A stretch of 47,882 nucleotides of DNA from Chloroflexota bacterium (lineage in GTDB: Bacteria > Chloroflexota > Anaerolineae > Promineifilales > Promineifilaceae): positions 1-47,882 of the forward strand of contig JAKQCM010000200.1 in NCBI GenBank assembly GCA_029559155.1, read 5' to 3'. This document shows positions 10,289 through 28,284 of this stretch, in pieces. A model generated the notes under the pieces. It was not told where the DNA came from. It was given only the letters and a program-made list of their open reading frames with translations, and made no database searches. The position numbers and the translations under genes were made by a program. The number at the start of each line of letters is the position of its first letter. Positions within the stretch are counted from its first letter, which is position 1.

Positions 10289-11269
10289 TCAGGGAACAAC
10301 AGCCTCGGCGGGAAGTCCATTATTCAAGCGCTGTAGAGCGGTGATGGCTTCCTGGCCATCCGGGCGAAGCTCAATGGCGCGCTTGAGGTCGGCTTTGGCT
10401 TCTTCTGACTGTTGGGCGGCGGAAAGCTGGTAAGCCCGGTAAAGATAAGCTGCATACAGCCGCGTTTGCATATCAAAATCGTCGGGAGTCAGGAGCAAAA
10501 TTTGCTCCAAAATGCGGATCGCTTCGGACCAGTTTTCGGCCATCCAGGGTTCGTAGAGGCTGTTAACCAGCGTTGTCAGGTCGGCCGTCGGCGCGGCGTT
10601 GATGGCTGCTGATGCGCCATTAACGGCCGTTCCACTTACGCCGTTAGGTGATATTTCCATTAATGGCGCTGCTTCGGGGGCCGCGCCGGTAGCCAGAGGC
10701 GACGTATAAAGAGCCAGACTCATGTCCAGTGTGGATTGTCCTTCCCCTTGGGCAAGCCTAACGTCTTTCAAGGATACGCCAGGCCAGGTGGTCTCCTGAA
10801 AACGGCCGAGAAAATCCAACAATTGCAGCACAGGTCCTGTCATCTGCACGGCGAACGACTGCACGCTGTACAAAGCGTCGGGGGCAACCGGCTCGGCCGC
10901 AGATTGCGCATGCAAACCGGTGATGGTGACGCTGCTGCTGGCCGCATACCGGTAAAGGCTGTCTAAAATGGCCGCTGCCTGAGCTTCGCTTAAAAACGCG
11001 CCGCTTGTGGCGTTAAGTTTCGTCTGAGAATCGGTCAGTTGTGCTTGCAGCGCGGCTGCCGAATCTTGTTGCGCCTGTTCACCCTGGTGCGTGGTTTGCT
11101 GCATGGCTAAGACCTGGGCAGCCAATTCCTGTCGCGCCGCCCATTGGGGCAGCACGTTAGCAGAAAGGAAATAGGCAAACCAAATCAGAGTAATGGTGAT
11201 GAAAGCGATTGCCAAAACAGACAACATGTTACTGCGGATCGTGTCGCGTAAATCGTATAAAACGTCCAT
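10289..11269 (-). CDS. PilO-like membrane protein with C-terminal TPR region
   Basis: Short cytoplasmic N-terminus, single TM (MLSVLAIAFITITLIWFAYFLSANVLP), coiled coil, ferredoxin-like PilO-type region (VQSFAVQMTGPVLQLLDFLGRFQETTWPGVSLKDV), then TPR-like repeats. Confidence 0.65.
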   Translation of the reverse strand: MDVLYDLRDTIRSNMLSVLAIAFITITLIWFAYFLSANVLPQWAARQELAAQVLAMQQTTHQGEQAQQDSAAALQAQLTDSQTKLNATSGAFLSEAQAAAILDSLYRYAASSSVTITGLHAQSAAEPVAPDALYSVQSFAVQMTGPVLQLLDFLGRFQETTWPGVSLKDVRLAQGEGQSTLDMSLALYTSPLATGAAPEAAPLMEISPNGVSGTAVNGASAAINAAPTADLTTLVNSLYEPWMAENWSEAIRILEQILLLTPDDFDMQTRLYAAYLYRAYQLSAAQQSEEAKADLKRAIELRPDGQEAITALQRLNNGLPAEAVVP

Positions 11270-11291: not shown

Positions 11292-13205
11292 TTACTGCCC
11301 CTGCAATTCGACAATGATGACAAAAGCGACGGTGTTCAGGGGGACGGCGCTGGTTAGGGGTGGGGCGATTTGCTTCGCCAGGATGAGGTGGCGGGAAACG
11401 ACCGTTTCCCGCACTCGCCCCATCGCCACAGCCAGCCCGCTTTCCTGTCCGGTCTGATTGTTGCTGACCGCCGGGGGATCTACCTGCAACGTCACTTTCA
11501 CGTCGCGGCGGCATAACGAAGCCCAGGAGAAGGTGATGGTCCCTTCATACGTGCCTTGCGGCAGCCCGGTAATGTTCGCCGTTACGTCCATCAGGCTGGG
11601 CGCGCCGCCCTGATTGGGGCTGATTTGCAGCCAGGGCGCACTGGTAACGGCCGACCAGCTCAACGTACTGTCGCCAAAGATTTGCACAGATTGGTTGGGT
11701 GGGTTGGCCCCGCCAGCGGTGGCCGGACCAAAGGCCAGCTGGTCCAGATTCAGACTCAGGGCCGGCACTTCCAAAACGGCGATGTTGTACGTGGCGCTGG
11801 GGCTGAACTGCTGCATTTTGTTGGTGATATTGGCAACGGCCGTGCCGTCTACTGACGCCGCCGGAAAACAAACCGACGAGGCAAAATTACCGGTACCCGC
11901 CGGGGAATAATCGTCGTTTTCCCATTGAGCGCCGTCCAGCGTCACGCGCAGAAAGGTATCTACGCCCAGCGCCAGGTTCGACGTGGCGACCTGATAAAAA
12001 CGACCGCCCTTGGTGATAAAACTGGCATTGTCCTGGTCTCCCTGAGGGAAGAAATTGCGCGTTTGCGTTTCGCCTACCAGGATAACGGTCGGAGTGGTTT
12101 CGTCGGGTTCAAAGGCATCGCGCAAGTCTGGGGTATTGGTGGGGTCTGGCTGGGCGGTGGGCGGCGGCGGCGTATTGGTAGCCGTTGGACCCGGCGTGGG
12201 AACCATTTCTTGCACAAAAAGCTGATAGCCCATCTGAGGCCCAAACTGCCCGCGATTGGTCACCTGGATAAAGACTTGTACATCTCCGGCAAGGCTTTGG
12301 ACGCCAATTTCTGAGGCCAGGGTTCCATCTTGCCGGTCATCGTTGACGTATACCTGGTTATTGATGGTAACAGTTAGCACTGTGTCTACGCCGGGAGAAA
12401 GGTTGGTGGTGGCAATGGTGTAGAAACGGCCGTTCTTGGCTAAAAACCAGGCGTTGTCTACATCGCCGTTGGGGTAGAAGTTGCGGGTCTGCACTTCGCC
12501 GACAAAAATGGGTTTGGCCTGGTTGTCGTCAATTTCGTAGGCGTCGCGCAAATTGGGGGTGGGGGTGATGGTGGGCACGGCCGTTGGGTTTGTCACCGGG
12601 CCGGCGCTTGTTGCTGTTGCTGCGACTGTGGTTGGTGAGGGCGCAGTTGTTGCCGTAGGCGAGGGCGACAACGTCGGCGTGATGACCGGTTGCGGTGTAG
12701 GCAGCAGGGTAATCGACTGCACCACAATCCGCGAAAACTGCCCGGAGGCTTCCAGTTCCTGGGCATAGGCGATAACGGCCGTATCATCGGCCGCTTCACC
12801 TGAAATGGTCAGGCGATTGTCTGTCTGTTCTACGCCCATTAACGTGATCTGATTGGTGTCGGTTTTGATGGCATCTACTACGGCCGGCCAATTCACATGC
12901 TGCGCGCCTGTGCTCGACTGTATGGCGGCCAAACTATCCGCCTCCGTTTGTGCTTCTGCCACTCTGGTTTGCAAGGCGTTTATCGTAGGGTCGCCTCCCA
13001 GATTGCCGATCTCGGCCATTTGCAACTGGCTTAATTCGCTCTCCAAACGTTGGGTGTCGGCCCGCACGGCCGTGGCTACCAGGTACATGGGCACAAACAA
13101 CAGCAGCAATCCCAAGGCAACCAACCACAAAATGATGGGGCGCCGGGAGTTTGTGGATGCTTGATCGTTCAGAACTTTGTCTAAATCATAAGAAGATTCG
13201 CGCAT
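11292..13205 (-). CDS. PilN-like membrane protein fused to two PPC-like domains and a BACON-like domain
   Basis: N-terminal single TM and coiled coil followed by VNWPAVVDAIKTDTNQITLMGVEQTDNRLTISGEAADDTAVIAYAQELEASGQFSRI (PilN-like); two DxxEPDE..GETQTRNFFPQGDQDNASF repeats; LSWSAVTSAPWLQISPNQGG. Confidence 0.7.
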   Translation of the reverse strand: MRESSYDLDKVLNDQASTNSRRPIILWLVALGLLLLFVPMYLVATAVRADTQRLESELSQLQMAEIGNLGGDPTINALQTRVAEAQTEADSLAAIQSSTGAQHVNWPAVVDAIKTDTNQITLMGVEQTDNRLTISGEAADDTAVIAYAQELEASGQFSRIVVQSITLLPTPQPVITPTLSPSPTATTAPSPTTVAATATSAGPVTNPTAVPTITPTPNLRDAYEIDDNQAKPIFVGEVQTRNFYPNGDVDNAWFLAKNGRFYTIATTNLSPGVDTVLTVTINNQVYVNDDRQDGTLASEIGVQSLAGDVQVFIQVTNRGQFGPQMGYQLFVQEMVPTPGPTATNTPPPPTAQPDPTNTPDLRDAFEPDETTPTVILVGETQTRNFFPQGDQDNASFITKGGRFYQVATSNLALGVDTFLRVTLDGAQWENDDYSPAGTGNFASSVCFPAASVDGTAVANITNKMQQFSPSATYNIAVLEVPALSLNLDQLAFGPATAGGANPPNQSVQIFGDSTLSWSAVTSAPWLQISPNQGGAPSLMDVTANITGLPQGTYEGTITFSWASLCRRDVKVTLQVDPPAVSNNQTGQESGLAVAMGRVRETVVSRHLILAKQIAPPLTSAVPLNTVAFVIIVELQGQ

Positions 13206-13462
13206 AATGGTTACTTCACTTGAGTTGTTTTGTCTTGCCTTTTGGCAAACAAAACGCACAAACTACGCTCGCCTGGAGGCTGTTTGCAACGATTGGTAAT
13301 GTCTACAGCTCCCAGGGATTCAACCGCAAATCACAATGACCCGAAAGACAAACGTCTGCATGTGGATTAAAAAATGAATCTGGTAATCGAGAAGTATGTC
13401 ATGCTGAGGTCCTCCGAAGCATCCCACTTGTGTGGAATGACCGAGCTAGAGAGATTCTTTGC

Positions 13463-13663: not shown

Positions 13664-14275
13664 TTAGAGAGGGGTGTAAAGGAGAGCGATGAAGACGCCG
13701 AGGGACAAAAAAGGAGCATACGGGATGTGGTAGCGACGGCCGTATCCGCGCAGCAGCAGATAGGCGGCGGCCAATCCACCCAGCCCTACACCCAGCAGCA
13801 AAGGCCACAGCACACCGGGGAAACCAAAGATCAGGCCAATCAGCGCCGCCAGTTTTACGTCGCCGCCGCCCAGGTCGCCGGGGCGCAGCCAGGCGGCCAG
13901 GACAAAAGCAGCCAAGGCCAACCCACCGCCCAATAATACGGCCGTCCAAGACTGCCTCCCATCGACCAGATGATAAGCCAGCGTCAGGGCGATGGCCGGG
14001 TACACCAGCACGTTGAGAACCAATCTGTATTTGCCGTCGATCAGGGCAATCAACAAGAAAAATGCATACAAGGCCAGAGACACCCATTGCCCGCGCAGGC
14101 CGAAGTAATAACAGACCACGGCCGTCGTCGATCCTATTACCCAGGGCAAGCCGGCAGGCTGTTTCTGTAGAATGGCCGAACGCGGCGTTTTTGCCAGACG
14201 GCACGGTAAAAAGTCGCTTAACCAATTCAACAACCAGCCCAACAAAAACCCCAGAACCAGCCATAAAAAACCCAT
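13664..14275 (-). CDS. Type IV prepilin / prearchaellin peptidase (A24 family), ArlK/PibD-like role proposed
   Basis: GGGDVKLAALIGLIFGFPGVLWPL and HIPYAPFLSLGVFIALLY motifs; polytopic. Confidence 0.88.
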   Translation of the reverse strand: MGFLWLVLGFLLGWLLNWLSDFLPCRLAKTPRSAILQKQPAGLPWVIGSTTAVVCYYFGLRGQWVSLALYAFFLLIALIDGKYRLVLNVLVYPAIALTLAYHLVDGRQSWTAVLLGGGLALAAFVLAAWLRPGDLGGGDVKLAALIGLIFGFPGVLWPLLLGVGLGGLAAAYLLLRGYGRRYHIPYAPFLSLGVFIALLYTPL

Positions 14276-14276
14276 G

Positions 14277-15314
14277 TCAGACCATCTCCTGATTCTTTTG
14301 CCGCAGTTGGCGCAGCATCTGGGCGCTGCGATCTGCCAATCGAACCATGTCTACGTCGCCCATGTTGTGCAGCAATGTTTCGTAATGGGCAAGCTTGTCG
14401 TCTTCGTCGAAGACGCTGTTTAGCAGGGTTTGAATGTCGCCGGTTGCTTCGGCGAGTAGTTTTTCGGCCGTTTCTTCAGGCGGCGGCTGATTGACGACTG
14501 GCGCGGGGGGAGTGGCTGGGTATTGCACGGCCGTTGTCTGCTGTTCGGGTGGCGGCGCGGCGGCGTTGGCCGGGTTTTGCTGCGCCTGTTTCCCGCCGCC
14601 TGCGGCCGGGGGCGCGCCGGGCTGTCTGGCCCCACCGCCACCGGCGTTTGCCTGGTCGCCGACGTTTGGTTGTGGGGTGGCGGTGGCCGCCGAGTCTGGT
14701 GGATTGCCCTGGCCAGTATTAGCGCCTGTTTCGGTTCTGGCGCTGGTTTGCCGGGCCGCGTCGTTGGAAGAAACGGCCGTTTGTTCAACTTCATCCATGG
14801 CTGTTTCCGCTTCGGCGCTGTTCAACAGGCGCAGCTCTTCTTGTTGGCGCGCTCTGGTCTGCTGCAAAATAGGAAACAAGGCCATCCCCAAAGCAGCCAA
14901 GAAGAGGCCAACGGCGGCGACGGCCGTTATCAGAATTGCTTTTTGCCCTAAAATCACATCCATCAGGCTCAAGTCTACTTGCGGCATGGCCAGCGCTTCT
15001 CCCAATGCGACGTACCGATCGCGGGCCAGAGGATCGGTCGTTTCCTGAAGCAGCATAGTCAAGGTCGCAGCCAACGCCTCATCGTCCCAGGTTGCCAGCC
15101 GGAACTGCGCCTGAGCTGCGTCGCCCGTCAGGGCATATGCTTCGGCGGCCATTGCCACGTAAGTCCGCTGATGGTCTGGCGATAGCTGCGCTGGGGCCAC
15201 GTTGGCCCACTGGACAGGCCACAACCACCAGCCAATGACCAGCCAGCCCAACAACAACCCACCGACAAAAACCAGGGGAAGGAGAAGATGAAACGGCCGT
15301 GTGGATTTAGACAT
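14277..15314 (-). CDS. Two-TM protein with long Pro/Ala/Gln-rich linker, unknown function, inside the arl locus
   Basis: TM1 LLLPLVFVGGLLLGWLVIGWWLW, TM2 ILITAVAAVGLFLAALGMALF, disordered linker, helical C-terminus; stop abuts the peptidase gene start. Confidence 0.75.
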   Translation of the reverse strand: MSKSTRPFHLLLPLVFVGGLLLGWLVIGWWLWPVQWANVAPAQLSPDHQRTYVAMAAEAYALTGDAAQAQFRLATWDDEALAATLTMLLQETTDPLARDRYVALGEALAMPQVDLSLMDVILGQKAILITAVAAVGLFLAALGMALFPILQQTRARQQEELRLLNSAEAETAMDEVEQTAVSSNDAARQTSARTETGANTGQGNPPDSAATATPQPNVGDQANAGGGGARQPGAPPAAGGGKQAQQNPANAAAPPPEQQTTAVQYPATPPAPVVNQPPPEETAEKLLAEATGDIQTLLNSVFDEDDKLAHYETLLHNMGDVDMVRLADRSAQMLRQLRQKNQEMV

Positions 15315-15422
15315 GGAGCGATGTTCCTCAGTCATCAGAAAGGGATCGATTGAAAAAAGAAACTTCCTGCCGCCCAAACTGCGCATAGTATCATTTTGCG
15401 TAAACCTTCATTCAACCTTTGC

Positions 15423-16913
15423 TCAAATGGTTAACAACTGCGCGACCAAAGGCGGCACAACCCAGAAGCTCATGCCCGACATAAAAAGCAGCACCGACAG
15501 ATAAAGCGTGAGCTTAAATTTATATCCGCCATCACTGGCGACGATCGCCATCGCGCTAATTACCGCCAACAAAACCACCATCATGATGGTAATGGCGTCC
15601 AGAAACTGCATTTGCTGCGGGTTAAAATTGGCCAGCGGCATCGCCAGGTTTTCCGAGGCCATTGCCGCCTGATCCGCCGTCATGGCAGTTTGCATCAGGA
15701 GTACAAAGTTGTGGATGATGTGCAGCACAAATACCATCAACGCGGCGACGACGATATGCATTACCAGCGTCAGCCAGGTAAATGTGCTGACTACGGTGCG
15801 TCTTTTGGCGCGCAGCATCGCAGTGCGCGAGGCAAACAGAGAGCAAAGAAACCCCACTTGTTCCGGGTCGCCGCCCAGGCGTACCGCTTCGTAAAAAATG
15901 CCGGTTGCCTGCCGAATGAGCCGGCTGCCAGTTTCGTTGCCAAAACGCTGCCAGCAAACCGTCGGGCTGACCAGAGCACGCAAGCGGGTATCTAATCGCT
16001 TTACATCGGGCTGAAGCCTGGGGAAGGAGCTGATGTCTATTTTGGTGATGGCTTCTTTGAGGGTGGTACCGGTGGACGTGGCTATGCCGCCTACCGAGCG
16101 TAAAAACGAACTGATCTCGGCGTCTTTTTTGGTTATTTCGGCGTCAGCCCGGTAGCTGACAATGCCTAAAGGCAGTAACACGGCCGATACGGCTGCCAGT
16201 ACCCACGCCTGGTTAAACCCAAGAAATATCAAAACTCCGCCCATGAGAACGGCCGTAGGGATAATCACGCGGCTTACTTGCAGGGTGCGCCGCTGGCTGT
16301 CTGACCCGATAGCCGACGGGATGATCATCTCTTCCTGTGGCGCAGCGCGCGAGAGAATCCAGGCGCCAAAGAAACCCATGATAACGGCCGTTACCACCAA
16401 CCCGGTAATCATGCCCGTGCCCATCGAATAAATCATCGTCGACACCAGATTAATGATCACAATCAGAGCCACCGAAACCACAATCGAAGAAAACGCATCC
16501 GACCACTTTTTCAACGATTCCAGGTCGCGTTCATAAGCATTGTCGTACACATTTGCCTGCACCGCCGCTTCACGGGCCAGAAAAGCGGGCAACGGCTCAC
16601 CAGACCGCATCGCGTCGGACAAACGCAGCAGAAAGCTTTTGATTTCCTCGGTAGGCGCTTTGTCGGCCACCGTGCGGCACGCTTCCGGGTAGTCGAACCG
16701 GAGTTCGTTCACCAGTAAATTGATGGCGATAAAATAATTCGCCGCCGGCGAACCGGATTCCGCAGCCATTTCAAACGTTTTGCTGCGCGAGATGCCCGCA
16801 GCGGCCGTGGCCGACATATAGGTCAACTGGTAAAACTGGTCAAAAGCCGTAACGTTTTTGAATTTATAAGAGCTTTTGGCGATGGGCTTCGGCAAGGATT
16901 TGGAAGAAGTCAT
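15423..16913 (-). CDS. arlJ: Archaellum/type IV pilus membrane platform protein, ArlJ (FlaJ)-like
   Basis: Two T2SSF-like halves with TM clusters (KFKNVTAFDQFYQLTYMSATAAAGISRSKTFEMAA...; EISSFLRSVGGIATSTGTTLKEAI); immediately follows the ArlI-like ATPase gene. Confidence 0.82.
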   Translation of the reverse strand: MTSSKSLPKPIAKSSYKFKNVTAFDQFYQLTYMSATAAAGISRSKTFEMAAESGSPAANYFIAINLLVNELRFDYPEACRTVADKAPTEEIKSFLLRLSDAMRSGEPLPAFLAREAAVQANVYDNAYERDLESLKKWSDAFSSIVVSVALIVIINLVSTMIYSMGTGMITGLVVTAVIMGFFGAWILSRAAPQEEMIIPSAIGSDSQRRTLQVSRVIIPTAVLMGGVLIFLGFNQAWVLAAVSAVLLPLGIVSYRADAEITKKDAEISSFLRSVGGIATSTGTTLKEAITKIDISSFPRLQPDVKRLDTRLRALVSPTVCWQRFGNETGSRLIRQATGIFYEAVRLGGDPEQVGFLCSLFASRTAMLRAKRRTVVSTFTWLTLVMHIVVAALMVFVLHIIHNFVLLMQTAMTADQAAMASENLAMPLANFNPQQMQFLDAITIMMVVLLAVISAMAIVASDGGYKFKLTLYLSVLLFMSGMSFWVVPPLVAQLLTI

Positions 16914-18615
16914 CAAAACCACGCACTCCTTTTTCTTTATGCAGCCGTTGAAAAACGGTTGCCCGGCGTTTCAATTCGGTATAAATCATTTTGCGTTTTT
17001 GGGGGGGAATACCCCGCCTCATGGCAATGCGCTCCTCCAGCAAGAAGCTGTTCATGTAGCCGGGAAACTCGAACGTGTCATTGGCCGGGTTCCAACGAAA
17101 AGCCTCCAGAAAGGAAAAACTTTCTGTATAAGGGTCATAGCCGATTATTTCGTTGATGCTGAGGACACGGCGAGCCATTTTTTTGTCGGCCAGGCGCACA
17201 GCCGACTGCACAATAGCCACGTTGAGGTTGTCGATGTAGGTTTTGGGCACGTTGATGGGGTCGCCGGTCAGACGCTGAATAAGCTTTTCAACAGACGCGG
17301 CGTGAAAGGTAGACATGACGCCGTGACCGGTCTGCATGGCCTGGAAAGCGATACGCCCTTCTTCGCCGCGAATCTCACCGATGATAATGCGATCCGGCCG
17401 CTGCCGCAGAGCAGCCCTGAGTAGATCGAACATGCCCACGCTGCCACCTGCGGATTCGCGCCCCATCTCGCGGGTAACTTCCCGAATCCAGTTTTTGTGG
17501 GGAACCATCACTTCAGGGGTGTCTTCGATGGTGATGATTTTGGCTTCCGGCAAAATGAAGGTGTTGATGGCGTTCAACGTCGTCGTTTTGCCGGAGGCTG
17601 TGGCCCCGACAACAAAGACATTCATCCCCTCCTCCATGATGAGTGAAAGATAGGCGGCCATGGTGTAGTCTAGTGTGCCAAATTCGATGAGTTCCAGAAT
17701 GCTGGTTGTGGAGCCGCCGAATTTACGGATGGTAAAGTTGCTGCCACGTTTGGAAATTTCACGGCCGTAGACAATGTTAATGCGCGACCCATCCGGCAAC
17801 ACGGCGTCTACAATGGGATTACGCACTGTCACCGGGCTTTTGACCCATTCACCCAGCCAGACGGCGAAATCGTCGAGTTGGTCCAGGGTTTCAAAATTGA
17901 TGGTGGTTTGCAGGCTTTTGAATATTTTGTGTTCAACGAAGATGGCCCCGACGCCGCTGCAACTGATGTCCTCTATGTAAGGGTCCAGAAGCAGCGGCTG
18001 CAATGGCCCAAGCCCAACTTTGTCGCGCAGGACGCGGTAACGCACGCCTTCTAGTTGCTGCGCGGTAACGTAAATGGGATCGGTTTTGCTTTTTTTGGCG
18101 GCGGATTTGGCGGATGGAGAACGGCCGTTTCCATTCCCATTTGCATGAGCCTGTGGCGGTTCCGTTGTACAAATCTGGTCAAGCAACTTGAGCAATATCT
18201 GCTTCTTTTCTTCTTCGTCTACAACTTCCCCAATGTCTTCGGCCCATTCCACCAGACGCTCGTCAATCTTCAACATTACCTCATCCAGATTCACCATCAC
18301 AGTGGGCTCTATCGAGACGTAATGGTCGCGAGCAGCGAAAGCGTCCGGGTAAATGTGGACAAACAAACCGCCGTCAATAGGATAAATGAGGTTGCGCCGT
18401 TCTAACAATTGCAGCTTGCGTGAAAGCGTGGGGTAATACATGGGAATTCCAATGTCGCCCAACGGAACCTGATGCAAATAATCTGCCAGGAAATCCGCCT
18501 GTTCGCAAGCGTCGCGCAGCGGCGGCGGCAGCACCATTTGCAGGCTGCATCCCACACCGTGGTTGCACTGCGCGCCACCTGTTTGAACGGGGAAAGGAAG
18601 GATTGATTGAGACAT
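16864..18615 (-). CDS. arlI: Archaellum motor ATPase, ArlI (FlaI)-like
   Basis: YGREISKRGSNFTIRKFGGST, Walker A GATASGKTTTLNAI, Asp box TIEDTPEVMVPHKNW, RQRPDRIIIGEIRGEEGRIAFQAMQTGHGVMSTFHA, N-terminal DHYVSIEPTV segment typical of archaeal ArlI. Confidence 0.9.
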   Translation of the reverse strand: MSQSILPFPVQTGGAQCNHGVGCSLQMVLPPPLRDACEQADFLADYLHQVPLGDIGIPMYYPTLSRKLQLLERRNLIYPIDGGLFVHIYPDAFAARDHYVSIEPTVMVNLDEVMLKIDERLVEWAEDIGEVVDEEEKKQILLKLLDQICTTEPPQAHANGNGNGRSPSAKSAAKKSKTDPIYVTAQQLEGVRYRVLRDKVGLGPLQPLLLDPYIEDISCSGVGAIFVEHKIFKSLQTTINFETLDQLDDFAVWLGEWVKSPVTVRNPIVDAVLPDGSRINIVYGREISKRGSNFTIRKFGGSTTSILELIEFGTLDYTMAAYLSLIMEEGMNVFVVGATASGKTTTLNAINTFILPEAKIITIEDTPEVMVPHKNWIREVTREMGRESAGGSVGMFDLLRAALRQRPDRIIIGEIRGEEGRIAFQAMQTGHGVMSTFHAASVEKLIQRLTGDPINVPKTYIDNLNVAIVQSAVRLADKKMARRVLSINEIIGYDPYTESFSFLEAFRWNPANDTFEFPGYMNSFLLEERIAMRRGIPPQKRKMIYTELKRRATVFQRLHKEKGVRGFDDFFQILAEAHRQKLL

Positions 18616-18671
18616 AATTTTTTTGTCGTATGGTTGTTTAGTAGCGTTGTCGAGTCATCCTGGCTGCCAGA

Positions 18672-19730
18672 CTAACCTTTCACTTTGCTTACCGGGATGA
18701 CGCGCATACCCCATCCGGGTTCCACTTCAAAGCTGACGATGTTGCCGGTGGTTTTGTCCGCGCCACGAACTTTGGTTACTTCCAACGTTTTAACCAGTTT
18801 TTTGCCTACTTCTTCGGTGCGAAGCTGCAAATGCGCGTCGCACAACGAACGAATGCGCACCAACAATTCACTGTTGAGCGCGTGGGAATGTAAGATGAGG
18901 ATGATGCTGCTGCCGCGCGCGCAGAGCCGCTTGCATTCTTCAAAAAAGCCCAATACTTCTTCAAGGGTGGATTGGCCGATTGCCAGGGTCAACGAATCTA
19001 CGATGATCATGTCGCGGCTGGTTTCCCGGCTCATGGCCTGAAGAAGACGGCGGGGGGCCGTGTTGCCTAATTGAGACAACTCCATCGGGTAAATACGGAT
19101 TTTGCCCAGAAGCAAATAGTCCAGAATGTCCAGGTCCAGGCTGCGCATTTGTTTTACCAGGCTCTTGACGCTGTTTTCGCTGGTAAAGAGCGAAAGCGTG
19201 AAGCTGTCGTTTAGGGAGCCAAACATCATTTGCTGCGAAAGGACGGATTTACCGGCTCCGGAACTGCCTTCGACAAGGGTGAGGGAGCCTAAGGGAATGC
19301 CGCCGCCCATTTTGCTGTCTAATTCGCCGTTGCCGGAGGAAATGACGCTTTTTTGCGGTCCTTTGCGACCGAGGTAGGGGAGTATTTTAGTGACCAGCGT
19401 AACGGCATCGAAGGGCTTGATGAGGTAATCATCTACGGGCGATTCGTGGCCGATGGTGAGGCTGTCTAGCTCGCTGTCGTTGGCGAGCATGATGAGGGGG
19501 ATTTCGGCCGTTTCGGGGTCGGCGCGCAAATAGCGGGCGACTTCTTCGCCGCCCATGCCGGGCAAAAAAATGTCCAGCAAGATGAGATCGGGTTTTTCGG
19601 ACACGGCCGTTTTTAATCCTGTCCCGTCGTCGATGGCTACCAGCACATCATAACCTTCGTCTTCCAGGAGGCCTTGGGTCCACGCCAACATCTGTACATC
19701 ACCTTCGATGACCAAAATCTTATGCGCCAT
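18672..19730 (-). CDS. arlH: Receiver domain fused to ArlH (FlaH)/KaiC-like ATPase
   Basis: N-terminal REC (ILVIEGDVQMLAWTQGLLEDEGYDVLVA...LILLDIFLPGMGGEEVARYL...DDYLIKPFD) then KaiC/ArlH-like GGGIPLGSLTLVEGSSGAGKSVLSQQMMFG and MIIVDSLTLAI; adjacent to arlI-like gene. Confidence 0.86.
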   Translation of the reverse strand: MAHKILVIEGDVQMLAWTQGLLEDEGYDVLVAIDDGTGLKTAVSEKPDLILLDIFLPGMGGEEVARYLRADPETAEIPLIMLANDSELDSLTIGHESPVDDYLIKPFDAVTLVTKILPYLGRKGPQKSVISSGNGELDSKMGGGIPLGSLTLVEGSSGAGKSVLSQQMMFGSLNDSFTLSLFTSENSVKSLVKQMRSLDLDILDYLLLGKIRIYPMELSQLGNTAPRRLLQAMSRETSRDMIIVDSLTLAIGQSTLEEVLGFFEECKRLCARGSSIILILHSHALNSELLVRIRSLCDAHLQLRTEEVGKKLVKTLEVTKVRGADKTTGNIVSFEVEPGWGMRVIPVSKVKG

Positions 19731-19731
19731 T

Positions 19732-20157
19732 TTAATTCTTACCACTCCAGATTAACGAGCGTACTCTTTCCACCAGAACGGCCGCTTTTACCGGCTTGGT
19801 TAGAAAATCGGATGCGCCTACGCGGTAGCCGTTTAGCTGGTCACGCACCCGCTGGGCAAAATCTACCGGGTCGTTGGCCGGTTTGTCTATGGCGCCACGG
19901 GCTGTAAGCATGAGGATGGTGGTAACGGCCGTTTCCGGGTTTTCGCGCAGTTTGCGGCATACCTGGAAGCCGTCCAAACCCGGCATCATAATATCCAAAA
20001 TCACCAGATCAGGTTTTAGAATAAAGGCCAATTCCAGGCCATCGTGGCCGTTGTAGGCCGTAAACACCTCATACCCATGCTTTTGCAGCACATGCTCTAC
20101 GATATGCAGCGTCAGCGGATCGTCATCTATAGCCAGGATGCGATGTGGTTGGTTCAT
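19732..20157 (-). CDS. Stand-alone receiver (CheY-like) protein
   Basis: MNQPHRILAIDDDPLTLHIVEHVLQKHGYEVFTA...LVILDIMMPGLDGFQVCRKL...ASDFLTKPVKAAVLVERVRSLI. Confidence 0.93.
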   Translation of the reverse strand: MNQPHRILAIDDDPLTLHIVEHVLQKHGYEVFTAYNGHDGLELAFILKPDLVILDIMMPGLDGFQVCRKLRENPETAVTTILMLTARGAIDKPANDPVDFAQRVRDQLNGYRVGASDFLTKPVKAAVLVERVRSLIWSGKN

Positions 20158-20561
20158 TGCGCCTCGTCGAACGTTGCCCAATTCTCTGCCTGTTCCGCCC
20201 AGTCCGGCTGCGCAAAGAAGGCAATGATGTCTTCTATGGCGGCCGTCAGGTGGAATAAACACTCCTCTGCTCCGCTTAGATCATTCCTCATCCCCATGAG
20301 TTCAATCTCGCAGGCCAATTTATAAGCCTGCCAACCGCCGATGTTGCCCAGGCTGCATTTCAGGCGATGGGCTTTGGCTTTCACATCGGCTCCCTTGCCA
20401 CAGGTTGCAGCTTCTTGCAGGGTTGCCATCTGGTCTGAGCAGTCGAACAAAAATAACGCCACGATCTCCTGCAATAATTCCAGGTCGCCATCTACTATGT
20501 CGCGGGCATAGGCCAGATCAATCGGGTACGAATTGTGGGTTGATGGTGATAATTGAGTCAT
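20154..20561 (-). CDS. HPt domain phosphotransfer protein
   Basis: AKAHRLKCSLGNIGGWQAYKLACEIE matches the HPt active-site helix; ATGA overlap with the receiver gene. Confidence 0.86.
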   Translation of the reverse strand: MTQLSPSTHNSYPIDLAYARDIVDGDLELLQEIVALFLFDCSDQMATLQEAATCGKGADVKAKAHRLKCSLGNIGGWQAYKLACEIELMGMRNDLSGAEECLFHLTAAIEDIIAFFAQPDWAEQAENWATFDEAQ

Positions 20562-20658
20562 TCTTTTTCCTCGGCTGAACTTGCCAAAACTGCCAATAAT
20601 CGGTTTCGGTCACCGCGCTTAACATATTTGCTTTGCGCCGGCGCCGGATGCTTCTAAA

Positions 20659-21186
20659 TCAACGAACAAACTGCATACTGGCGCTTACGCCGTTTTCGGC
20701 GGCAATGGTTACCATATTTGTGGTGTTGGGCCCGACCGGGGGCAAGACGCGCAAACGCAGCAAAACTTCCTCGCCGGGGTTCAGGATTCCGGGTTCAAAC
20801 ACTTCGCTCTCGGCCGTAGCCGCGTCCAGATAGATGCCGATCACGCTCCATTCGCCGGCGGCCGGTTCGCCGGTGTTGTAGCTGTACCAGCCCACCGCAA
20901 GGTCGCCGGGCGGGGTATAGTATTCGGTGATGACGTCCCAATTGGCGAAATCGGCCAGGCGGGTGTCGCCATCGTTGCGCAGTGTCAGCTCGATGACTGC
21001 GCCCGAACTTTTGGTTTGCGCCAGAATGGGCGTGAGGTCGGTGTGCATCTGGTCGCTCAGGCGGGTCTGCATCTCTTGCCAGGAGGCGCGCAGCGTGTCT
21101 TGCGCGCCCAGGTAGCCGGTGAAAATGGTGAGGCTGGCAAACAAGATGAGGGCCAGGACAATAAAAGCGGTCAGTATGGTTTCCAT
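20659..21186 (-). CDS. arlF: Archaellum stator-type protein, ArlF/FlaF-like
   Basis: N-terminal TM METILTAFIVLALILFASLTIFTGYL then RLSDQMHTDLTPI...VIELTLRNDGDTRLADFANWDVITEY...GEEVLLRLRVLPP...MVTIAAENGVSAS beta-sandwich. Confidence 0.72.
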   Translation of the reverse strand: METILTAFIVLALILFASLTIFTGYLGAQDTLRASWQEMQTRLSDQMHTDLTPILAQTKSSGAVIELTLRNDGDTRLADFANWDVITEYYTPPGDLAVGWYSYNTGEPAAGEWSVIGIYLDAATAESEVFEPGILNPGEEVLLRLRVLPPVGPNTTNMVTIAAENGVSASMQFVR

Positions 21187-21214
21187 AAAGAGCTATCCCA
21201 TTTGTTCAACAGGC

Positions 21215-21724
21215 TTACATGCTGAAGAAGTATTCGGCGTCTACGCCGTTGGGAGTGATGACCTTTAGGAAGTAACGGCCGTTTCCCAAAGGCACGCCAT
21301 AGTGAATGGTAATTTTCAAGGTGGCCGTTGGCGTCCATTGGCCGCTGTTTTCCACTTGCCAGGTCCAGTACGGGTAGCCGCTGGCGGCGCTTTGATGCGG
21401 AATGCGATTAAATGCGCCTTCAGGGCCAAAAAACACGTCGGTCTGTTCCAAAGCCACAATGCGCGTTTCGCCTACATTCTTAACCCAGGCAAATACATCA
21501 AAATCACCATCGCCGTTGGTGTCTTGCCACCAGCTGCTGCTGTCCAGCTCGCCCACGGAATGGATGATGGTGATCTGGCTTTTTAGCTTTTCGTCGGCGC
21601 GGCTGGTCATGCTGGTCATGGCGTCGTTGCTTTCGATGATGGCCGGATAGGCGGCGTTAAACAGAAGAACTCCCATCACCATACTGATGACGATGAGCAT
21701 TGTGGTCATGATTGCTTTGTCCAT
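21215..21724 (-). CDS. arlG: Archaellum stator-type protein, ArlG/FlaG-like
   Basis: MDKAIMTTMLIVISMVMGVLLFNAAYPAIIESNDAMTSMTSRADEKLKSQITIIHS...VFAWVKNVGETRI...GNGRYFLKVITPNGVDAEYFF. Confidence 0.74.
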   Translation of the reverse strand: MDKAIMTTMLIVISMVMGVLLFNAAYPAIIESNDAMTSMTSRADEKLKSQITIIHSVGELDSSSWWQDTNGDGDFDVFAWVKNVGETRIVALEQTDVFFGPEGAFNRIPHQSAASGYPYWTWQVENSGQWTPTATLKITIHYGVPLGNGRYFLKVITPNGVDAEYFFSM

Positions 21725-21789
21725 ATGATGCCTCTGGTGTTTTTGTAGGGATTAGACCCGGCGAAGAAATGGGACCAATCTGTCGGTAT

Positions 21790-22341
21790 TTAGTCTAGTA
21801 GTTGGGTGAGTTGCTGCAGCAGAACGGCCGTTTCCGCCGCATCTGCCCCTTCATTCTCGTCACACAACACAATCAGCTGCTGCAGGGTATCGTAGATGTC
21901 CGGGGAGATTGCGCCGGAAGAAGCGCGCAGGTCCAACAACTTGCGAGTTCGCTCGGCGCCAATCTTGGCCACGCTGCCCCCAACCCAATCCACCAATCCG
22001 GCAAAAGACTGGTTGACGGTCGCGGGAGGGGCGGCGGCGGGAAGCTGTTCGGGTAACGGCCGTGTCGCCTCCCGCAAATCGGCCAGCGAAACCTGACGCA
22101 TCTTCAACCCTGCGGGCTGGTTCGGCTCGGAATCCGCTGCTGGCTGCCCATTGTTGTGTGCCGGTCTGGCCGCGCCCTGCGCCAGCACTCCACTATCGTC
22201 ATACGAATCATCTTCTGTGCGGAGCGCCGGATGGTAATGAACGAGAATTTGTTCTTGGATTTCCAATAACGTTTTCTGAATTTGATTCTTCAAAATCTTC
22301 ATTTCTTGTTCCAGAGATTTCACTCTTTGTTCGATGTCCAT
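21790..22341 (-). CDS. ArlC/D/E-like cytosolic coiled-coil protein
   Basis: N-terminal coiled coil MDIEQRVKSLEQEMKILKNQIQKTLLEIQEQI and C-terminal LVDWVGGSVAKIGAERTRKLLDLRASSGAISPDIYDTLQQLIVL resembling the ArlD/E domain (W..FLV..VG...L...LDYY...GWIS..V). Confidence 0.58.
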   Translation of the reverse strand: MDIEQRVKSLEQEMKILKNQIQKTLLEIQEQILVHYHPALRTEDDSYDDSGVLAQGAARPAHNNGQPAADSEPNQPAGLKMRQVSLADLREATRPLPEQLPAAAPPATVNQSFAGLVDWVGGSVAKIGAERTRKLLDLRASSGAISPDIYDTLQQLIVLCDENEGADAAETAVLLQQLTQLLD

Positions 22342-22362
22342 CAGGCTGCTCCTATTGCTGAC

Positions 22363-22400
22363 AACAGTTTAGCCGGACTCGTAAGCCCGGCTGAACTGTT
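22363..22400 (-). promoter_or_regulatory. Stem-loop directly downstream of the archaellin gene
   Basis: AACAGTTTAGCCGG-10 nt-CCGGCTGAACTGTT: 14-bp stem with one G.U-compatible position; no T-run. Confidence 0.82.
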
Positions 22401-22425
22401 CATTCATGTGGCGACTTGTGATTTG

Positions 22426-23013
22426 TTATTTCAGGTCCATCACCGAATCGAAGTACGGCGGGGTGGTCCGTTGGATGCTCAGCGCCGCGCCCTTGGGCGG
22501 TTTCATCTCCACCGAGAACTGCGTGTTGATGCTCAGAGCATTGGTCAGGCCGCTCAGGTCTACGGTAATCTCGACCAGTTCGCCTTTATCCAGCAGTTCG
22601 TCGCCATCGTTGGTTACGATCCAGTTCGTTGTCCAGGCTACGTCATTCTCGAACTGCGAGGCATCGACGTAATTCACCACCATGACCGGGGTTGTCGTGT
22701 TCAGGTCCAGCGGTTCGCCGCCAACCACGTTGCCCAGCGTAAAGACCAAGGTGTCAATTTCTGCGCCGGTGGTGCCGCTAACGGCGGCCGTGGCGATGAG
22801 GGAACCCTTAACTTCCATTGAGGACTGCACTTCGCCTAAGCCGGAGTAGACGGCTTCTTTGCCACGCTCGGTGGAGAATGTACCGGCTGACAGGATGGTA
22901 AAGGCAAAAACCGAAGCTACCACGATAAAGGCGATCAGGATGATGGCTGTTTCCAGAGCGGTGATACCGCTTTCATCCCGACCCAACTTCTTCCAAAAAT
23001 TGTTGCTGTTCAT
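22426..23013 (-). CDS. arlB: Archaellin (ArlB/FlaB-like major filament protein)
   Basis: [64 protein letters not shown] closely follows the archaeal archaellin N-terminal pattern; RBS AAAGGAG before ATG. Confidence 0.88.
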
Positions 23014-23202
23014 TTTTTGCTCCTTTTGCAAGATATGAATGTTGATTTTTTCTCGGCGCGCTGCTCATTCGATTTTTGCGCTGCGCCGTTTTTGTTCGAT
23101 GTGGTTACTGTACAACAGACTTATCTTGCGGAGCGTGGGCCTGGCGCGAGGCTTGCGTGAGGCTTGTGTGAGGGCCGCTCTACCCGGACTGTCGCTCCTT
23201 TA

Positions 23203-23919
23203 TCAATCCGGAACCAGCATGTAGCCACGGCGTGACACCGTGCGGATGAGTGATGGCTGGCTGGCGTCTGGTTCTATCTTGAGGCGAAGGTTTTTTATGT
23301 GCCAGCGTACCAGACTGGGATCGGCCGTGCCGGGCGCGTAGGCCCACACTTCTTCCAACAGGTCTTGGCTGGAAAACGGCCGTTTCGGATGCGTCATCAG
23401 GTGGTACAACAGCTCAAACTCGGCCGGAGTAAGCTGAACCATCTCGCCATCGCCCCGGCGCACCCAACACGCCTGTAAATGCAGCGTCAGCCGCCCCAAC
23501 GTCAGTTCTTGCGTGCCGGTCGCTGGCTCTGCTGCGGCAGCTTCACGCCGACGCAGCAGAGCGCGTACCCGCGCTTTCAGCTCTTTAGATTGAAAGGGCT
23601 TGTCCAGATAATCATCGGCCCCGGCGTCCAGGCCGGTTACATGGTCATCCACACTGTCTTGCGATGTCAGAAAGAGGATGGGCACATAACGCAGCGCGGA
23701 GTCGGTGTCCAGGCGCAGGCGGCGGCAAACCTCCAGGCCATCCATCCACGGCATGTTCACGTCTAGCACTATCAGATCGGGCTGCATCTGGTGGGCAGTT
23801 TGCAGCCCTTCCAGCCCATTATGTGCCGTTAGAACTTCATACCCGTCTTGCGTCAGCACCAACCGCAAGCTGCGGACCAATTCGGTGTCATCGTCAACCA
23901 ATAATATGTTTGGAGCCAT
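23203..23919 (-). CDS. OmpR-type response regulator
   Basis: MAPNILLVDDDTELVRSLRLVL...IVLDVNMPWMDGLEV...GADDYLDKPFQSKELKARVRALLRR plus winged helix. Confidence 0.95.
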   Translation of the reverse strand: MAPNILLVDDDTELVRSLRLVLTQDGYEVLTAHNGLEGLQTAHQMQPDLIVLDVNMPWMDGLEVCRRLRLDTDSALRYVPILFLTSQDSVDDHVTGLDAGADDYLDKPFQSKELKARVRALLRRREAAAAEPATGTQELTLGRLTLHLQACWVRRGDGEMVQLTPAEFELLYHLMTHPKRPFSSQDLLEEVWAYAPGTADPSLVRWHIKNLRLKIEPDASQPSLIRTVSRRGYMLVPD

Positions 23920-24027: not shown

Positions 24028-25098
24028 TTACGCTTCTACTGTGAAGATTGCGCCGTGGGGGTCGTTGGCATGGACGGCGATACGGCCGTTATGCGCCTCT
24101 ACCACCATGCGGCAAAAAGCCAGCCCCAGCCCTACCTGCTTCACGTTGCGCTGTCCGGCGGCCACAATCTGGAATTTATCGAAAATTGTCTCTTGGTGTT
24201 CCGGCGGAATGCCTGGCCCTTCGTCGCAAACTTGCAGGCAAAAACGGGCGTGGGGTAACGGCCGTAACTTCACTATGACACGGCCGTTTACCGGCGAAAA
24301 CTTCAGCGCATTAGACAACAAATTATCCAGCACACGCTGCCACAGGTTTGCGTCCAGGCTGGCGATCAACGGCTCAGGCGGCGTTTCCAGGGCCAACGTC
24401 ACCGACCTTTGCGCCGCCAGCGGCTGATAGGCGTCGCAAGCCGTTTGCAGCAGATCATTCAGGGTAACGGCCGTTTGCAGCAGCGTCAGCTTGCCATGCT
24501 CCATCTTGGCCATCATCAGCATATCCGTCAGGTACCCATTCAGCCGGACCACCTGGCCGGTAATGGTATGCAGCGCCTCCTGCGCCTCCGGTTGGGGTGT
24601 ATAGCGTCGTAATAAATCGCAGTACATGGTGATGGTCGTCAGCGGGCTGCGAATATCGTGGATGATCATGTCCGACAAATCCTGGCGCAGACGCATCATC
24701 GTTTGCAGGTCGTCGTGGCGCTGCTTAATGCGCAGCATGGAGCGCACGCGGGCGCGCAGTTCCAGGCCGTTCACCGGCTTGTGGATAAAGTCGTCGGCTC
24801 CAGCGTCCAGGCCGCGGGCCACATCTTCTTTGCTGTCCAGCGCTGTTATCAGGACGATCGGGATGTGTTGGGTGGCAACGGCCGTTTTCAAGACCCGGCA
24901 CACCGCAAACCCATCCATGCCTGGCATCATCACATCCAACAAAATCACATCCGGGTTTATTTCCGGCAGGCGTTCCAGCGCCTCCGGCCCGCCGGCGGCA
25001 AAATGCAAGGTATACCCTTCTTGCAACAGCAGCATCTCCGCCGTCTGTCGCGCCGTAAAGTCGTCATCTACAATCAAAATTACCGGTTTTTCGCTCAT
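24028..25098 (-). CDS. Receiver-histidine kinase (REC-HisKA-HATPase_c)
   Basis: MSEKPVILIVDDDFTARQTAEML...DVMMPGMDG...DDFIHKPVNGLEL; DMIIHDIRSPLTTITMYCDLL; DEGPGIPPEHQETIFDKF. Confidence 0.94.
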   Translation of the reverse strand: MSEKPVILIVDDDFTARQTAEMLLLQEGYTLHFAAGGPEALERLPEINPDVILLDVMMPGMDGFAVCRVLKTAVATQHIPIVLITALDSKEDVARGLDAGADDFIHKPVNGLELRARVRSMLRIKQRHDDLQTMMRLRQDLSDMIIHDIRSPLTTITMYCDLLRRYTPQPEAQEALHTITGQVVRLNGYLTDMLMMAKMEHGKLTLLQTAVTLNDLLQTACDAYQPLAAQRSVTLALETPPEPLIASLDANLWQRVLDNLLSNALKFSPVNGRVIVKLRPLPHARFCLQVCDEGPGIPPEHQETIFDKFQIVAAGQRNVKQVGLGLAFCRMVVEAHNGRIAVHANDPHGAIFTVEA

Positions 25099-25143
25099 TG
25101 TCGTTACGTACATCACAGAAGGTAGTCAGGCGATTGTGGCCAG

Positions 25144-28100
25144 CTACTGGTTTTGCGTTTTGGGAAATGTCTCGATCACGGCCAACAACGCCTTCAGGCT
25201 GAGAGGCTTGCTTAAATAAGCGTCGGCTCCGGCGGCCAGACAGCGCTCGCGGTCGCCGGGCATTGCCAGAGCTGTCAGGGCGATGATGGGTAAAACGGCC
25301 GTTGCCTCATCCGCGCGCAGCCGTTTAATCGCCTGTAAGCCGTCCATTTCCGGCATCTGAATATCCATCAGGACCAGGTCCGGCTGCAAAGCCGCCTGCT
25401 CGATGGCTTCACGGCCGTTACGCGCCACCAATAACCGATACCCCTTCACGCGCAAATAATCGCCCACCGTCTCAATAAAAATCTCGTTATCTTCGGCCAA
25501 CAAAATGAGTTTGCCCTCTGTGGCCTGGACGGCCGTCGGCAGCTGCGCCGTTTCGTTTACCGGCCGGCCCAGCTTATCCGCCGGCTCCCACGGCAGCCTC
25601 ACCGCAAATCGGCTGCCGCGCCCCGTCTCGCTGGACAAGCTGACGCTGCCGCCGTGCAGTTCAGCCATGCGATACACCAGCGAGAGTCCCAGACCGGTGC
25701 CGTTATATTCCCGCGACAGGCGGCTGTCTAGCTGCACAAACGGCCGAAACAGCTTTTGCATATTCTCCGGGGCGATGCCAATGCCTTCGTCCCACACCAC
25801 AAAACACACAGCCTTTTGTCCCAGATCGCCTGTCACCTCCAGGCCAATGCGGCCGCCAACGGCCGTAAATTTCACCGCGTTACTCAATAAATTCACCAAA
25901 ATCTGCTTCACCCGCCGCTCATCGGCCCAAATAGTGGTCACAACCGGGTCTACAGACAAATCAACCTGCAATTCCTTTTTGTGCGCCTCTTGCCGGATAA
26001 AACGCAAGCTCGCCTGGCACACCTCCCGCACCGACACCGGCCCCGGCTCTAAAACCAGCTTGCCGGCCTCAATCTTAGACAGGTCCAAAATATCGTTGAT
26101 CAAATTCAGCAGGTGACGGCCGCTTTCCTCAATGCTGCGCAGCGACCGGCTCTGGTTGCCGTTCAGCGCGCCATACACGCCCTCCTGCAGCGCCTCGCCG
26201 ATGCCCAGCAGCGCATTCAGCGGTGTGCGCAGTTCATGGCTCATCGAAGCCAAAAATTCATCCTTCAACCGGTTGGCGCGCGCCAGTTCGGCATTTGCCG
26301 CGCTCAGGTCGGCGGTGCGCTCCGCCACATGCTGCGCCAGTTGGGCGCGTTCCGCCTGTAAGGCCGCCTCCGCTCGCAGCCGCTCTTCAATTTCGCGCCG
26401 CGCCTGTTCGTACAACCGCGCATTTTCGATGGCCGCCGCCGCCGGACCGGACAACAGCGTCAGCAGGCGTAAGTCGGCCTCGTCAAATGGCCCGGTCGCT
26501 TTGTTGATGGCTTCTATCGCGCCAATCGTCTGCCCCTTCACCTGAAGAGGCGCGCATAAAAGTGTGCGCGCTGTGAATTTGCTCATCTCGTCAAAATTGG
26601 GAAAGTGGCGCCGGTCGGCCTTGGCGTCGGTGATCAGCAGCGGTTCGCCATGCTCGGCTACCCAGCCCACAATGCCCTGGCCCAACGCCAGCCGCTTGCC
26701 GCGCACAAATTCGGCCGCCTGCCCAAACGCGGCGGCAAACCACAAATCGCCCTGCTCTCTATCCAATAGCACCACCGAGGTGGCATCTACGTCTAGCAGC
26801 CGCGTAGCCTGCGCCGTAACAATGGTTAACGTAGTTTGCAAATCCAGCGACGAGGTGACGGCGTGGCTGATCTGATTCAGGGTGGTCAATTCGGCGACGC
26901 GCTGTTGGAGGGTTTTGTACAGGCGGGCGTTTTGGATGGCGATGGCTGCCTGCCCGGCAAAGGCGGTCAGGCGCGTGGCGTGGGCCGGCTGGTAGAAGTT
27001 TGGCTGGCTGTAATTGAGCGCCAGAAAGGCGATCACTTCTTGTTGTACGGCGATGGGAATGCCCGCCCAGGAGCGCACGTGGGGCGATGCGTCAGCGCGT
27101 ACCCAATCGGGATCAGTGGAGATGTCGGGAATGACGAGGGGTTGGCCGGATCGGGCCATGCGCTGCAAGCTGGGCATGTCGGCGAGGGCAAAGCGGGTGG
27201 TGGGCGGGGTTTGGGAACGGCCGTATCCCCGCGTACACACAATGTCCACTTCCTGGCCGCGCAGCAGCATAACATTGGCCGTGTCATAAGGCACGACATG
27301 GGCAATCTGGTCCAGCAGCCGATCTAACAACTGGTCAAAATCCAACGTGGCGCTGAGGGCTGTGCCCACATCGCGCAGCGCTTCGGCCAGGCGGCGCTGT
27401 TCGTATTCAGCCCGCTCCGCCCGCTGCCGCTCGGCTATCTCTTGCTGTAAAGAATTGTTGGCCTGCTGCAATTGGGCGGCGCTGCCGGCCGCCTGCCGAA
27501 AGATAATGACAATACTGCTCATCAACCCGACCAATACGCAAAGATAACTTACTAGCTTCAAGGTTAAAGCGACTTCGAAGTAGGCGTCGAACAATTCGAC
27601 AGAGGAAAACATGAAAAATATCTGCCCGGAGAAGCTGAGAAGTAAGGCTACAACCAACCAGTGTTCGAAGGCGTCGTGCTGCCAATAGCCTTTGGCCAGA
27701 TAATTAACCAACGCCCAGAGGTAAAACGTGGTGGAGATAAATAGTTCGATGCGCGCCAGGGGCAGCGTGGGCGCGGCTTCGCTTTGAGCTACCAATACAA
27801 ACAGCAGCAAGTTAACCAGCGTGAGGCTGACTATGAGGATAAATAGGCGACGGCCGGTCATACGGCCGTACCACCCCGTTTCCACTTCCCGCCGCCACGT
27901 CAGCCAGCTGCCAAATATCAAAATCGAAAGAAACGTCGGTGACGTATTCCAAATCCAGTGCGGCGCATAATCTAGCCAGGGTAAAATATCGGCCAGATAC
28001 GGATAGATGGCCAGCACATGCAGGCCATCCAACAGCCCTGCTCCTACAAAGCCAACGCCAATAAACAAAAACACGTTGTCGCGGCGGGTGAAATAGCGCA

Positions 28101-28284
28101 CCAACGCCAACATCCCCACAAAACCGGCCAGCATGGCAGCCATAAACTCCAGCGTCATGTGTCGCGTCAGGTTGCCTTGCCAGGCGTCGGGCGGCAGCAA
28201 GAGGCGCGCTGCCGCCACCAGGACAAACAGTATCCCATAGATACGTATTCGGGTGGTTGCTTTGGTGGCTGAAGAAAATGACAT
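25144..28284 (-). CDS. Hybrid histidine kinase: multi-TM (MASE-like) sensor, two GAF domains, HisKA, HATPase_c, C-terminal REC
   Basis: About 7-8 N-terminal TM helices, GAF-type repeats (DVGTALSATLDFDQLLDRLLDQIAHVV; ISHAVTSSLDLQTTLTIVTAQATRLLDVDATSVVLLDRE), ASMSHELRTPLNALLGIGEAL, GIGIAPENMQKLFRPFVQLDSRLSREYNGTGLGLSL, LLAEDNEIFIETVGDYLRVKGY..LVLMDIQMPEMDG. Confidence 0.93.
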   Translation of the reverse strand: MSFSSATKATTRIRIYGILFVLVAAARLLLPPDAWQGNLTRHMTLEFMAAMLAGFVGMLALVRYFTRRDNVFLFIGVGFVGAGLLDGLHVLAIYPYLADILPWLDYAPHWIWNTSPTFLSILIFGSWLTWRREVETGWYGRMTGRRLFILIVSLTLVNLLLFVLVAQSEAAPTLPLARIELFISTTFYLWALVNYLAKGYWQHDAFEHWLVVALLLSFSGQIFFMFSSVELFDAYFEVALTLKLVSYLCVLVGLMSSIVIIFRQAAGSAAQLQQANNSLQQEIAERQRAERAEYEQRRLAEALRDVGTALSATLDFDQLLDRLLDQIAHVVPYDTANVMLLRGQEVDIVCTRGYGRSQTPPTTRFALADMPSLQRMARSGQPLVIPDISTDPDWVRADASPHVRSWAGIPIAVQQEVIAFLALNYSQPNFYQPAHATRLTAFAGQAAIAIQNARLYKTLQQRVAELTTLNQISHAVTSSLDLQTTLTIVTAQATRLLDVDATSVVLLDREQGDLWFAAAFGQAAEFVRGKRLALGQGIVGWVAEHGEPLLITDAKADRRHFPNFDEMSKFTARTLLCAPLQVKGQTIGAIEAINKATGPFDEADLRLLTLLSGPAAAAIENARLYEQARREIEERLRAEAALQAERAQLAQHVAERTADLSAANAELARANRLKDEFLASMSHELRTPLNALLGIGEALQEGVYGALNGNQSRSLRSIEESGRHLLNLINDILDLSKIEAGKLVLEPGPVSVREVCQASLRFIRQEAHKKELQVDLSVDPVVTTIWADERRVKQILVNLLSNAVKFTAVGGRIGLEVTGDLGQKAVCFVVWDEGIGIAPENMQKLFRPFVQLDSRLSREYNGTGLGLSLVYRMAELHGGSVSLSSETGRGSRFAVRLPWEPADKLGRPVNETAQLPTAVQATEGKLILLAEDNEIFIETVGDYLRVKGYRLLVARNGREAIEQAALQPDLVLMDIQMPEMDGLQAIKRLRADEATAVLPIIALTALAMPGDRERCLAAGADAYLSKPLSLKALLAVIETFPKTQNQ

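Follow-up and report, generated by a model that had tools for sequence, protein, structure and literature searches.

We looked at the archaellum locus carried by a Chloroflexota bacterium of the class Anaerolineae (GenBank assembly GCA_029559155.1, contig JAKQCM010000200.1, positions 1 to 47,882), the whole stretch of 47,882 nucleotides being called the window hereafter. Judging from its gene content, the region 13664-23013, all on the minus strand, is most likely a complete Chloroflexota archaellum locus, with an ArlB filament, an ArlF/G stator, an ArlI/J motor, an ArlH regulator and an A24 peptidase. In this locus, ArlH is fused to an N-terminal receiver domain (REC) and is directly preceded by genes for a phosphotransfer protein (Hpt) and a second receiver (REC2). 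We consider it fairly probable that the signal controlling this archaellum enters through ArlH, via a phosphorelay or by REC-REC contact. The three genes are the following, in the order of transcription:

20154..20561, minus strand: free-standing Hpt phosphotransfer protein (PF01627 2.6e-7; His in KAHRLKCSLGNIG)
19732..20157, minus strand: REC2, a stand-alone CheY-like receiver with an insertion of about 14 amino acids (PF00072 1.2e-24; canonical D-D/D/T/K active site)
18672..19730, minus strand: REC-ArlH fusion, an atypical REC (about 19383-19721) and an ArlH/FlaH KaiC-family ATPase (PF00072 3.5e-16, PF06745 8.7e-17)

At 20154-20157, an ATGA contains both the hpt stop and the REC2 start; REC-ArlH starts with an ATG (19730) a single base past the REC2 stop.

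A receiver domain fused to ArlH

The ArlH half of the fusion carries nucleotide-binding motifs (Walker A GSSGAGKS, Walker B IIVDS). It scored 264 bits against the FlaH model NF004723 (cut-off 194), and 204 bits against the narrower equivalog NF052589, under the cut-off of 215. Its best match in the PDB was FlaH 4yds (2e-31). In the AlphaFold model (mean pLDDT 85), REC and ArlH each formed a well-folded domain, the linker between them at residues 127-131 being weak, and the ArlH half matched 4yds with a TM-score of 0.87 by target. The original prediction, made by a model from the sequence alone, had described this product as an ArlH-like KaiC-family ATPase; the ArlH assignment holds, but the N-terminal REC and the adjoining Hpt and REC genes had been missed in that finding. 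No literature report of an ArlH/FlaH with a receiver domain was found, supplementary tables and subscription papers being outside the scope of that search, and the word 'receiver' is absent from the main text of both papers on the archaellum of L. aerophila (PMC12488501, PMC13319060).

We then looked at the distribution of the fusion; here and below, G-, L- and f-labels denote sampled genomes, loci and families. With wider sampling, which took in G750 and G257, 17 class genomes had REC and ArlH called within a single open frame; of the 20 class genomes with an ArlH over the cut-off, 15 carried the fusion. All seven ArlH frames of family f40 were of fusion length, and all three ArlH of the L. 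aerophila family were plain, each with a separate REC adjoining. This indicates an association of REC with ArlH, whether in adjacent genes or within a single protein. Elsewhere in the phylum, a REC in ArlH was found in none of 10 ArlH-bearing genomes. Two genomes outside the class, G663 and G701, were rejected as fusions: their ArlH frame is long, but it has no REC match and its N-terminus resembles an over-extended frame. When REC-ArlH was used as a query against the genome collection, nearly all matches were unrelated receivers, and one was a true relative (L032).

In the REC tree, 14 fused RECs formed one clade (SH-aLRT 94), beside the first REC of REC-HK-REC-Hpt kinases (HK, histidine kinase). 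The two fused RECs of family f31 fell outside this clade, and in the ArlH-domain tree the f31 fusions nested with the plain ArlH of G091 (97/94), within a mostly plain group (95/86). These two placements favour at least two fusion events, and the fusion is thus likely to have arisen at least twice; in the short REC tree, a single event is all that the starred branches require. In G087 (L246:10122-11933), a REC-ArlH and a plain ArlH stand in tandem ahead of arlI, and the motor of this organism may mix tagged and untagged ArlH.

A proposed control route through ArlH

In archaea, phosphorylated CheY binds CheF, and CheF docks on ArlCDE (PMC9126983). For bacterial archaella, CheF was reported to be absent, and it was suggested that another component might have evolved in Chloroflexota to signal the motor (PMC12488501). 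In our profile searches, on which all absences given here are based, CheF (PF04283) was found in none of the 25 genomes tested, with archaeal controls positive. CheW (PF01584) and methyl-accepting chemotaxis protein (MCP, PF00015) domains were both missing from the window genome, from G358, which is a second species of the same genus, and from G181; since CheW domains are absent, CheA is absent from these three genomes as well. CheA, CheW and MCPs are present in most f40 relatives. A rule by which the fusion goes with a lack of chemotaxis genes was dropped, as six fused genomes and the incomplete G265 are without CheW and eight fused genomes have it.

The interval between arlF and arlH holds one REC in G170 and G052, REC2 alone in G181 and G134, and Hpt with REC2 in the window and G358. 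In G118, this interval contains CheW, two MCPs, CheA-REC, CheB, REC-HK-REC-Hpt and REC2, followed by REC-ArlH, and a chemotaxis set in a similar order was observed in G137, G237 and G309. Three further signalling genes lie upstream of arlB in the window:

23203..23919, minus strand: OmpR-type response regulator, just upstream of arlB (PF00072 1.9e-30, PF00486 3.5e-22)
24028..25116, minus strand: sensor kinase REC-HK (Pfam domains)
25144..28383, minus strand: sensor kinase MASE3-GAF-GAF-HK-REC (Pfam domains)

Both kinases are kept beside arl in G358 (L115), and similar kinases were found in G753. By their position, the two are candidate phosphate donors for Hpt.

All five active-site positions of REC2 are intact in the window, and 17-18 of 19 relatives have the canonical residue at each of them. 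In the window, the fused REC reads E-G, D, A, K, which departs from the canonical receiver set (acidic pair, phospho-Asp, Thr/Ser, Lys). Because the REC2 site is canonical and that of the main fused type is not, REC2 probably takes the phosphate, and contact may be what the receiver on ArlH responds to. In the route that we propose, a sensor kinase would transfer phosphate to Hpt and from there to REC2. Either REC2 or this relay itself would then act on the receiver fused to ArlH, and this receiver would change ArlH ring assembly or the contact with ArlI, the motor being switched, stopped or gated as a result. Archaeal ArlH forms a ring whose state controls ArlI binding, which is why a receiver on ArlH would be expected to alter its assembly or its contact with ArlI. 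According to the title of a 2021 paper by de Sousa Machado, cited in PMC11372060, ArlH autophosphorylation inhibits oligomerisation and ArlI binding.

Several points weigh against this route. In the 14 fused RECs of the main type, D12 is replaced by E in every case, and D13 by S, N, G or P, again in 14 of 14, so that the second acidic residue is lost; 13 of the 14 have lost the switch Thr, and two (G006 and G087) the phospho-Asp. With its active site altered in this way, the main-type fused REC may not be phosphorylated. The link between REC and ArlH is also not universal, since five archaellated relatives (G222, G252, G091, G751 and G753) have a plain ArlH with no REC adjoining. Only members of the window's genus showed a free-standing Hpt gene, and any contact of REC-ArlH with a partner is putative. 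Finally, the window genome is 93% complete with 5% contamination, in 519 contigs, and the absences recorded in it carry some doubt for this reason.

The altered acidic pocket, the replaced Thr and the two missing phospho-Asp would all suit a pseudo-receiver, which would serve as a fixed dock to another motor or polar protein, or as an assembly checkpoint, without a phosphate signal. Receiver-like domains in Kai proteins provide a precedent (KaiA3, PMC11372060). We regard this as a real possibility, if not one that we would favour: the phospho-Asp is kept in 12 of the 14 main-type RECs and the Lys in 11, the f31 fusions keep both acids, the phospho-Asp and the Lys, and the REC2 next to the fusion has, in most members, a canonical site.

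A second explanation is that Hpt, REC2 and the upstream kinases set archaellum gene expression and not motor turning, REC-ArlH being a by-product of operon rearrangement. The OmpR-type protein, a candidate regulator of the arl operon, points in this direction, as each of the six archaellated genomes of the family with an examined locus (the window's and five others) has it in this place, immediately upstream of arlB. We consider this explanation unlikely, given that REC2 is without a DNA-binding domain and that REC joined ArlH in two seemingly separate events.

Signal entry through ArlH can be placed in a wider scheme. The bacterial archaellum genes were reported as sister to those of Methanotecta (PMC12488501). 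With slightly less than even confidence, we propose that a CheF-less archaeal motor entered bacteria, and that the control link was rebuilt there, at least twice, by attaching bacterial RECs to ArlH. The KaiC-family ring ATPase would then itself act as response regulator to a rotary motor, with input from an ordinary phosphorelay or from a chemotaxis kinase. If true, this would show how a transferred machine gets rewired to host signalling, and it suggests that ArlH, and not ArlC/D/E alone, can be a control point.

The archaellum core, its neighbours and the host genome

The genes are transcribed in the order arlB, arlC/D/E-like, arlG, arlF, hpt, REC2, REC-arlH, arlI, arlJ, membrane protein gene, A24 peptidase, pilN-like and pilO-like. 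Those of the locus are tightly packed, some of them overlapping, in what looks like an operon layout. Besides REC-ArlH, the core comprises:

22426..23013, minus strand: arlB, archaellin (PF01917 1.1e-25; ATG at 23013, the open reading frame reaching a TTG at 23031)
21790..22341, minus strand: ArlC/D/E-like coiled-coil protein, switch-complex candidate (position, and an N-terminal coiled coil conserved in 24 loci)
21215..21724, minus strand: arlG, stator (profile of 24 homologues against Sulfolobus FlaG 5tug, 1.9e-16)
20659..21186, minus strand: arlF, stator (PF01917 6e-7; PF22201 FlaF_Ig-like 9e-6; FlaF 4p94 in the PDB, a Sulfolobus stator structure, 9e-5)
16864..18615, minus strand: arlI, motor ATPase (NF058587, 650 bits, cut-off 550; FlaI 4ii7, 4e-126)
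15423..16922, minus strand: arlJ, membrane platform, overlapping the arlI frame (NF004703 ArlJ 7.5e-107; PF00482 4e-10)
13664..14275, minus strand: A24 prepilin/archaellin peptidase (PF01478 2.3e-10; GxGD motif present as GGGDVK)

ArlB scored 91 bits against the Pfam family Arch_flagellin PF01917 (cut-off 29.5), and its class III signal peptide ends in ...GRDESG, followed by ITALETAII. Its best solved relatives are the archaellum filament structures 9i5h, 9sie and 9sii (1e-58). ArlI gave 166 bits as TadA and 69 bits as GspE, and it matched a CpaF structure at 2e-43, FlaI 4ii7 being the best PDB match. A Tad or type IV pilus (T4P) identity of the locus was ruled out by these scores, the archaellum ATPase lying far above TadA, PilB and GspE. 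The best family for ArlJ is NF004703 with 358 bits, which does not reach the curated cut-off of 570, though the homology is plain. The ArlC/D/E-like label is weak and rests mainly on position and the coiled coil: PF04659 was matched, weakly (best 0.0024), in 4 of 24 homologues, and the window protein has no match. The A24 peptidase is inside or adjoining the arl cluster in the window and about 10 relatives.

All the archaellum genes named in the original prediction are thus present on the minus strand at the positions it gave, and the data support its claim that an apparently complete archaellum was transferred into a bacterium. It had envisaged being overturned by a grouping of ArlI and ArlJ with Tad or T4P systems, by a filament protein without an archaellin match, or by an archaeal or chimeric contig. 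Instead, ArlI scores as an archaellum ATPase, ArlB passes PF01917, and the locus, found again in related genomes, lies on a bacterial contig. Its caveat about archaellum loci in some Chloroflexota was right; since such archaella are already published (PMC12488501, PMC13319060, PMC10444878), its claim for the core cluster is correct and not new.

Three accessory genes stand beside the core:

14277..15386, minus strand: arlJ-adjacent membrane protein (two predicted transmembrane helices, a long disordered linker and a conserved C-terminal helical segment)
11292..13259, minus strand: PilN-like protein with a C-terminal BACON-like domain (PF05137 2.7e-6; PF19190 5e-4), found beside arl in related loci
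10289..11269, minus strand: PilO-like protein with a TPR-like C-terminus (PilO PF04350 0.086 and TPR_2 4e-4, both weak; conserved pairing with PilN)

A homologue of the arlJ-adjacent protein directly follows arlJ across Chloroflexota archaellum loci, including that of G170, and weakly so in other classes. Its C-terminal segment is common to archaellum loci, and most genomes of the class, archaellated or not, have its N-terminal membrane and helical region. It matched no Pfam or NCBIfam family and was poorly modelled by AlphaFold (mean pLDDT 61). We take it as an undescribed part that may, at a guess, be a membrane tether for the platform.

That the cells build the filament for adhesion, as a pilus, and not for swimming seems to us very improbable. 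Swimming is a prediction for the window species, and PilN/PilO alignment proteins adjoin the locus, which would both fit such a pilus. Against this, the locus encodes ArlF/G stators and an ArlI and ArlH of archaellum type, and swimming is on record for L. aerophila, whose gene set is the same (PMC12488501). None of 23 archaellated genomes had a bacterial flagellin, with bacterial controls positive.

Archaellin was present in 24 of the 396 sampled genomes of the class, related arl loci were found across it, and G358 (L115) has the same gene order and the same flanking kinases; the count and the shared order make both chance and a chimeric contig unlikely. We practically discount an archaeal or chimeric contig or a Tad/T4P system, to which the 519 contigs and 5% contamination might have pointed, because bacterial two-component genes stand beside the locus, the G+C content of the window is fairly even, the archaellum ATPase score of ArlI is 650 bits against 166 for TadA, and the recurrence of locus and flanks in G358 refutes this reading unless both assemblies err alike. 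Extra archaellin genes remote from any arl cluster were observed in G252, G222 and G333 (L124, L125 and L117); no ArlH over the cut-off was found in G333.

Comparison with known systems

Isolates of SAR202 (Dehalococcoidia), from the same phylum, have archaellum gene clusters (PMC10444878) in which arlB, G, F, H, I and J are grouped as in the window; the ArlH of the sampled genomes outside the class of the window is, in contrast, without REC. PMC10444878 also reported archaellum genes for Aggregatilinea lenta, of which a strain is in culture. KaiA3 and other receiver-fused Kai proteins (PMC11372060) also have a receiver-like domain within a KaiC-type control system, but there the receiver is on KaiA and not on the KaiC homologue, and what it controls is a clock. 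The euryarchaeal archaellum with its CheY-CheF-ArlCDE route (PMC9126983) shares with the window the filament, the stator, the motor ATPase, ArlH, an ArlC/D/E-like protein and control by a receiver. The window differs in having no CheF and in carrying the receiver on ArlH, whereas the archaeal ArlH structures are single-domain (4yds, 228 amino acids; 4wia, 233 amino acids).

The closest comparison is with L. aerophila, for which swimming and a 2.7 A filament were described and the machinery was found in 243 genomes (PMC12488501, 2025); according to the data statement of that paper, 9SIE and 9SII are its archaellum structures. It shares with the window the gene set, the arl2-type order (arlG before arlF), the lack of flagellin and the nearby PilN/PilO, and its filament protein is 59% identical to the ArlB of the window. 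Since the ArlB of G170 is identical to the solved filament protein, G170 is L. aerophila or a very close species. In G170 (L112:12119-12508), a separate REC lies between arlF and arlH, beside a plain ArlH, and is probably the cheY homologue mentioned in PMC12488501; no CheW or MCP domains were found in this genome. The A24 peptidase is within the locus in the window and was reported outside it in L. aerophila (PMC12488501). A model in which PilN/PilO cross the envelope was proposed for the bacterial archaellum (PMC13319060). The PilO of L. aerophila has LysM, whereas in the window the PilN-like protein has a BACON-like domain and the PilO-like protein a TPR-like end, possibly as different ways to grip the cell wall. 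Above all, REC and ArlH form one protein in the window, which also has Hpt and REC2. The core being already known, it is this variation in motor control that is new relative to the published Chloroflexota archaella, and REC-ArlH, REC2 and Hpt together make a concrete candidate for the CheF-replacing component suggested in PMC12488501.

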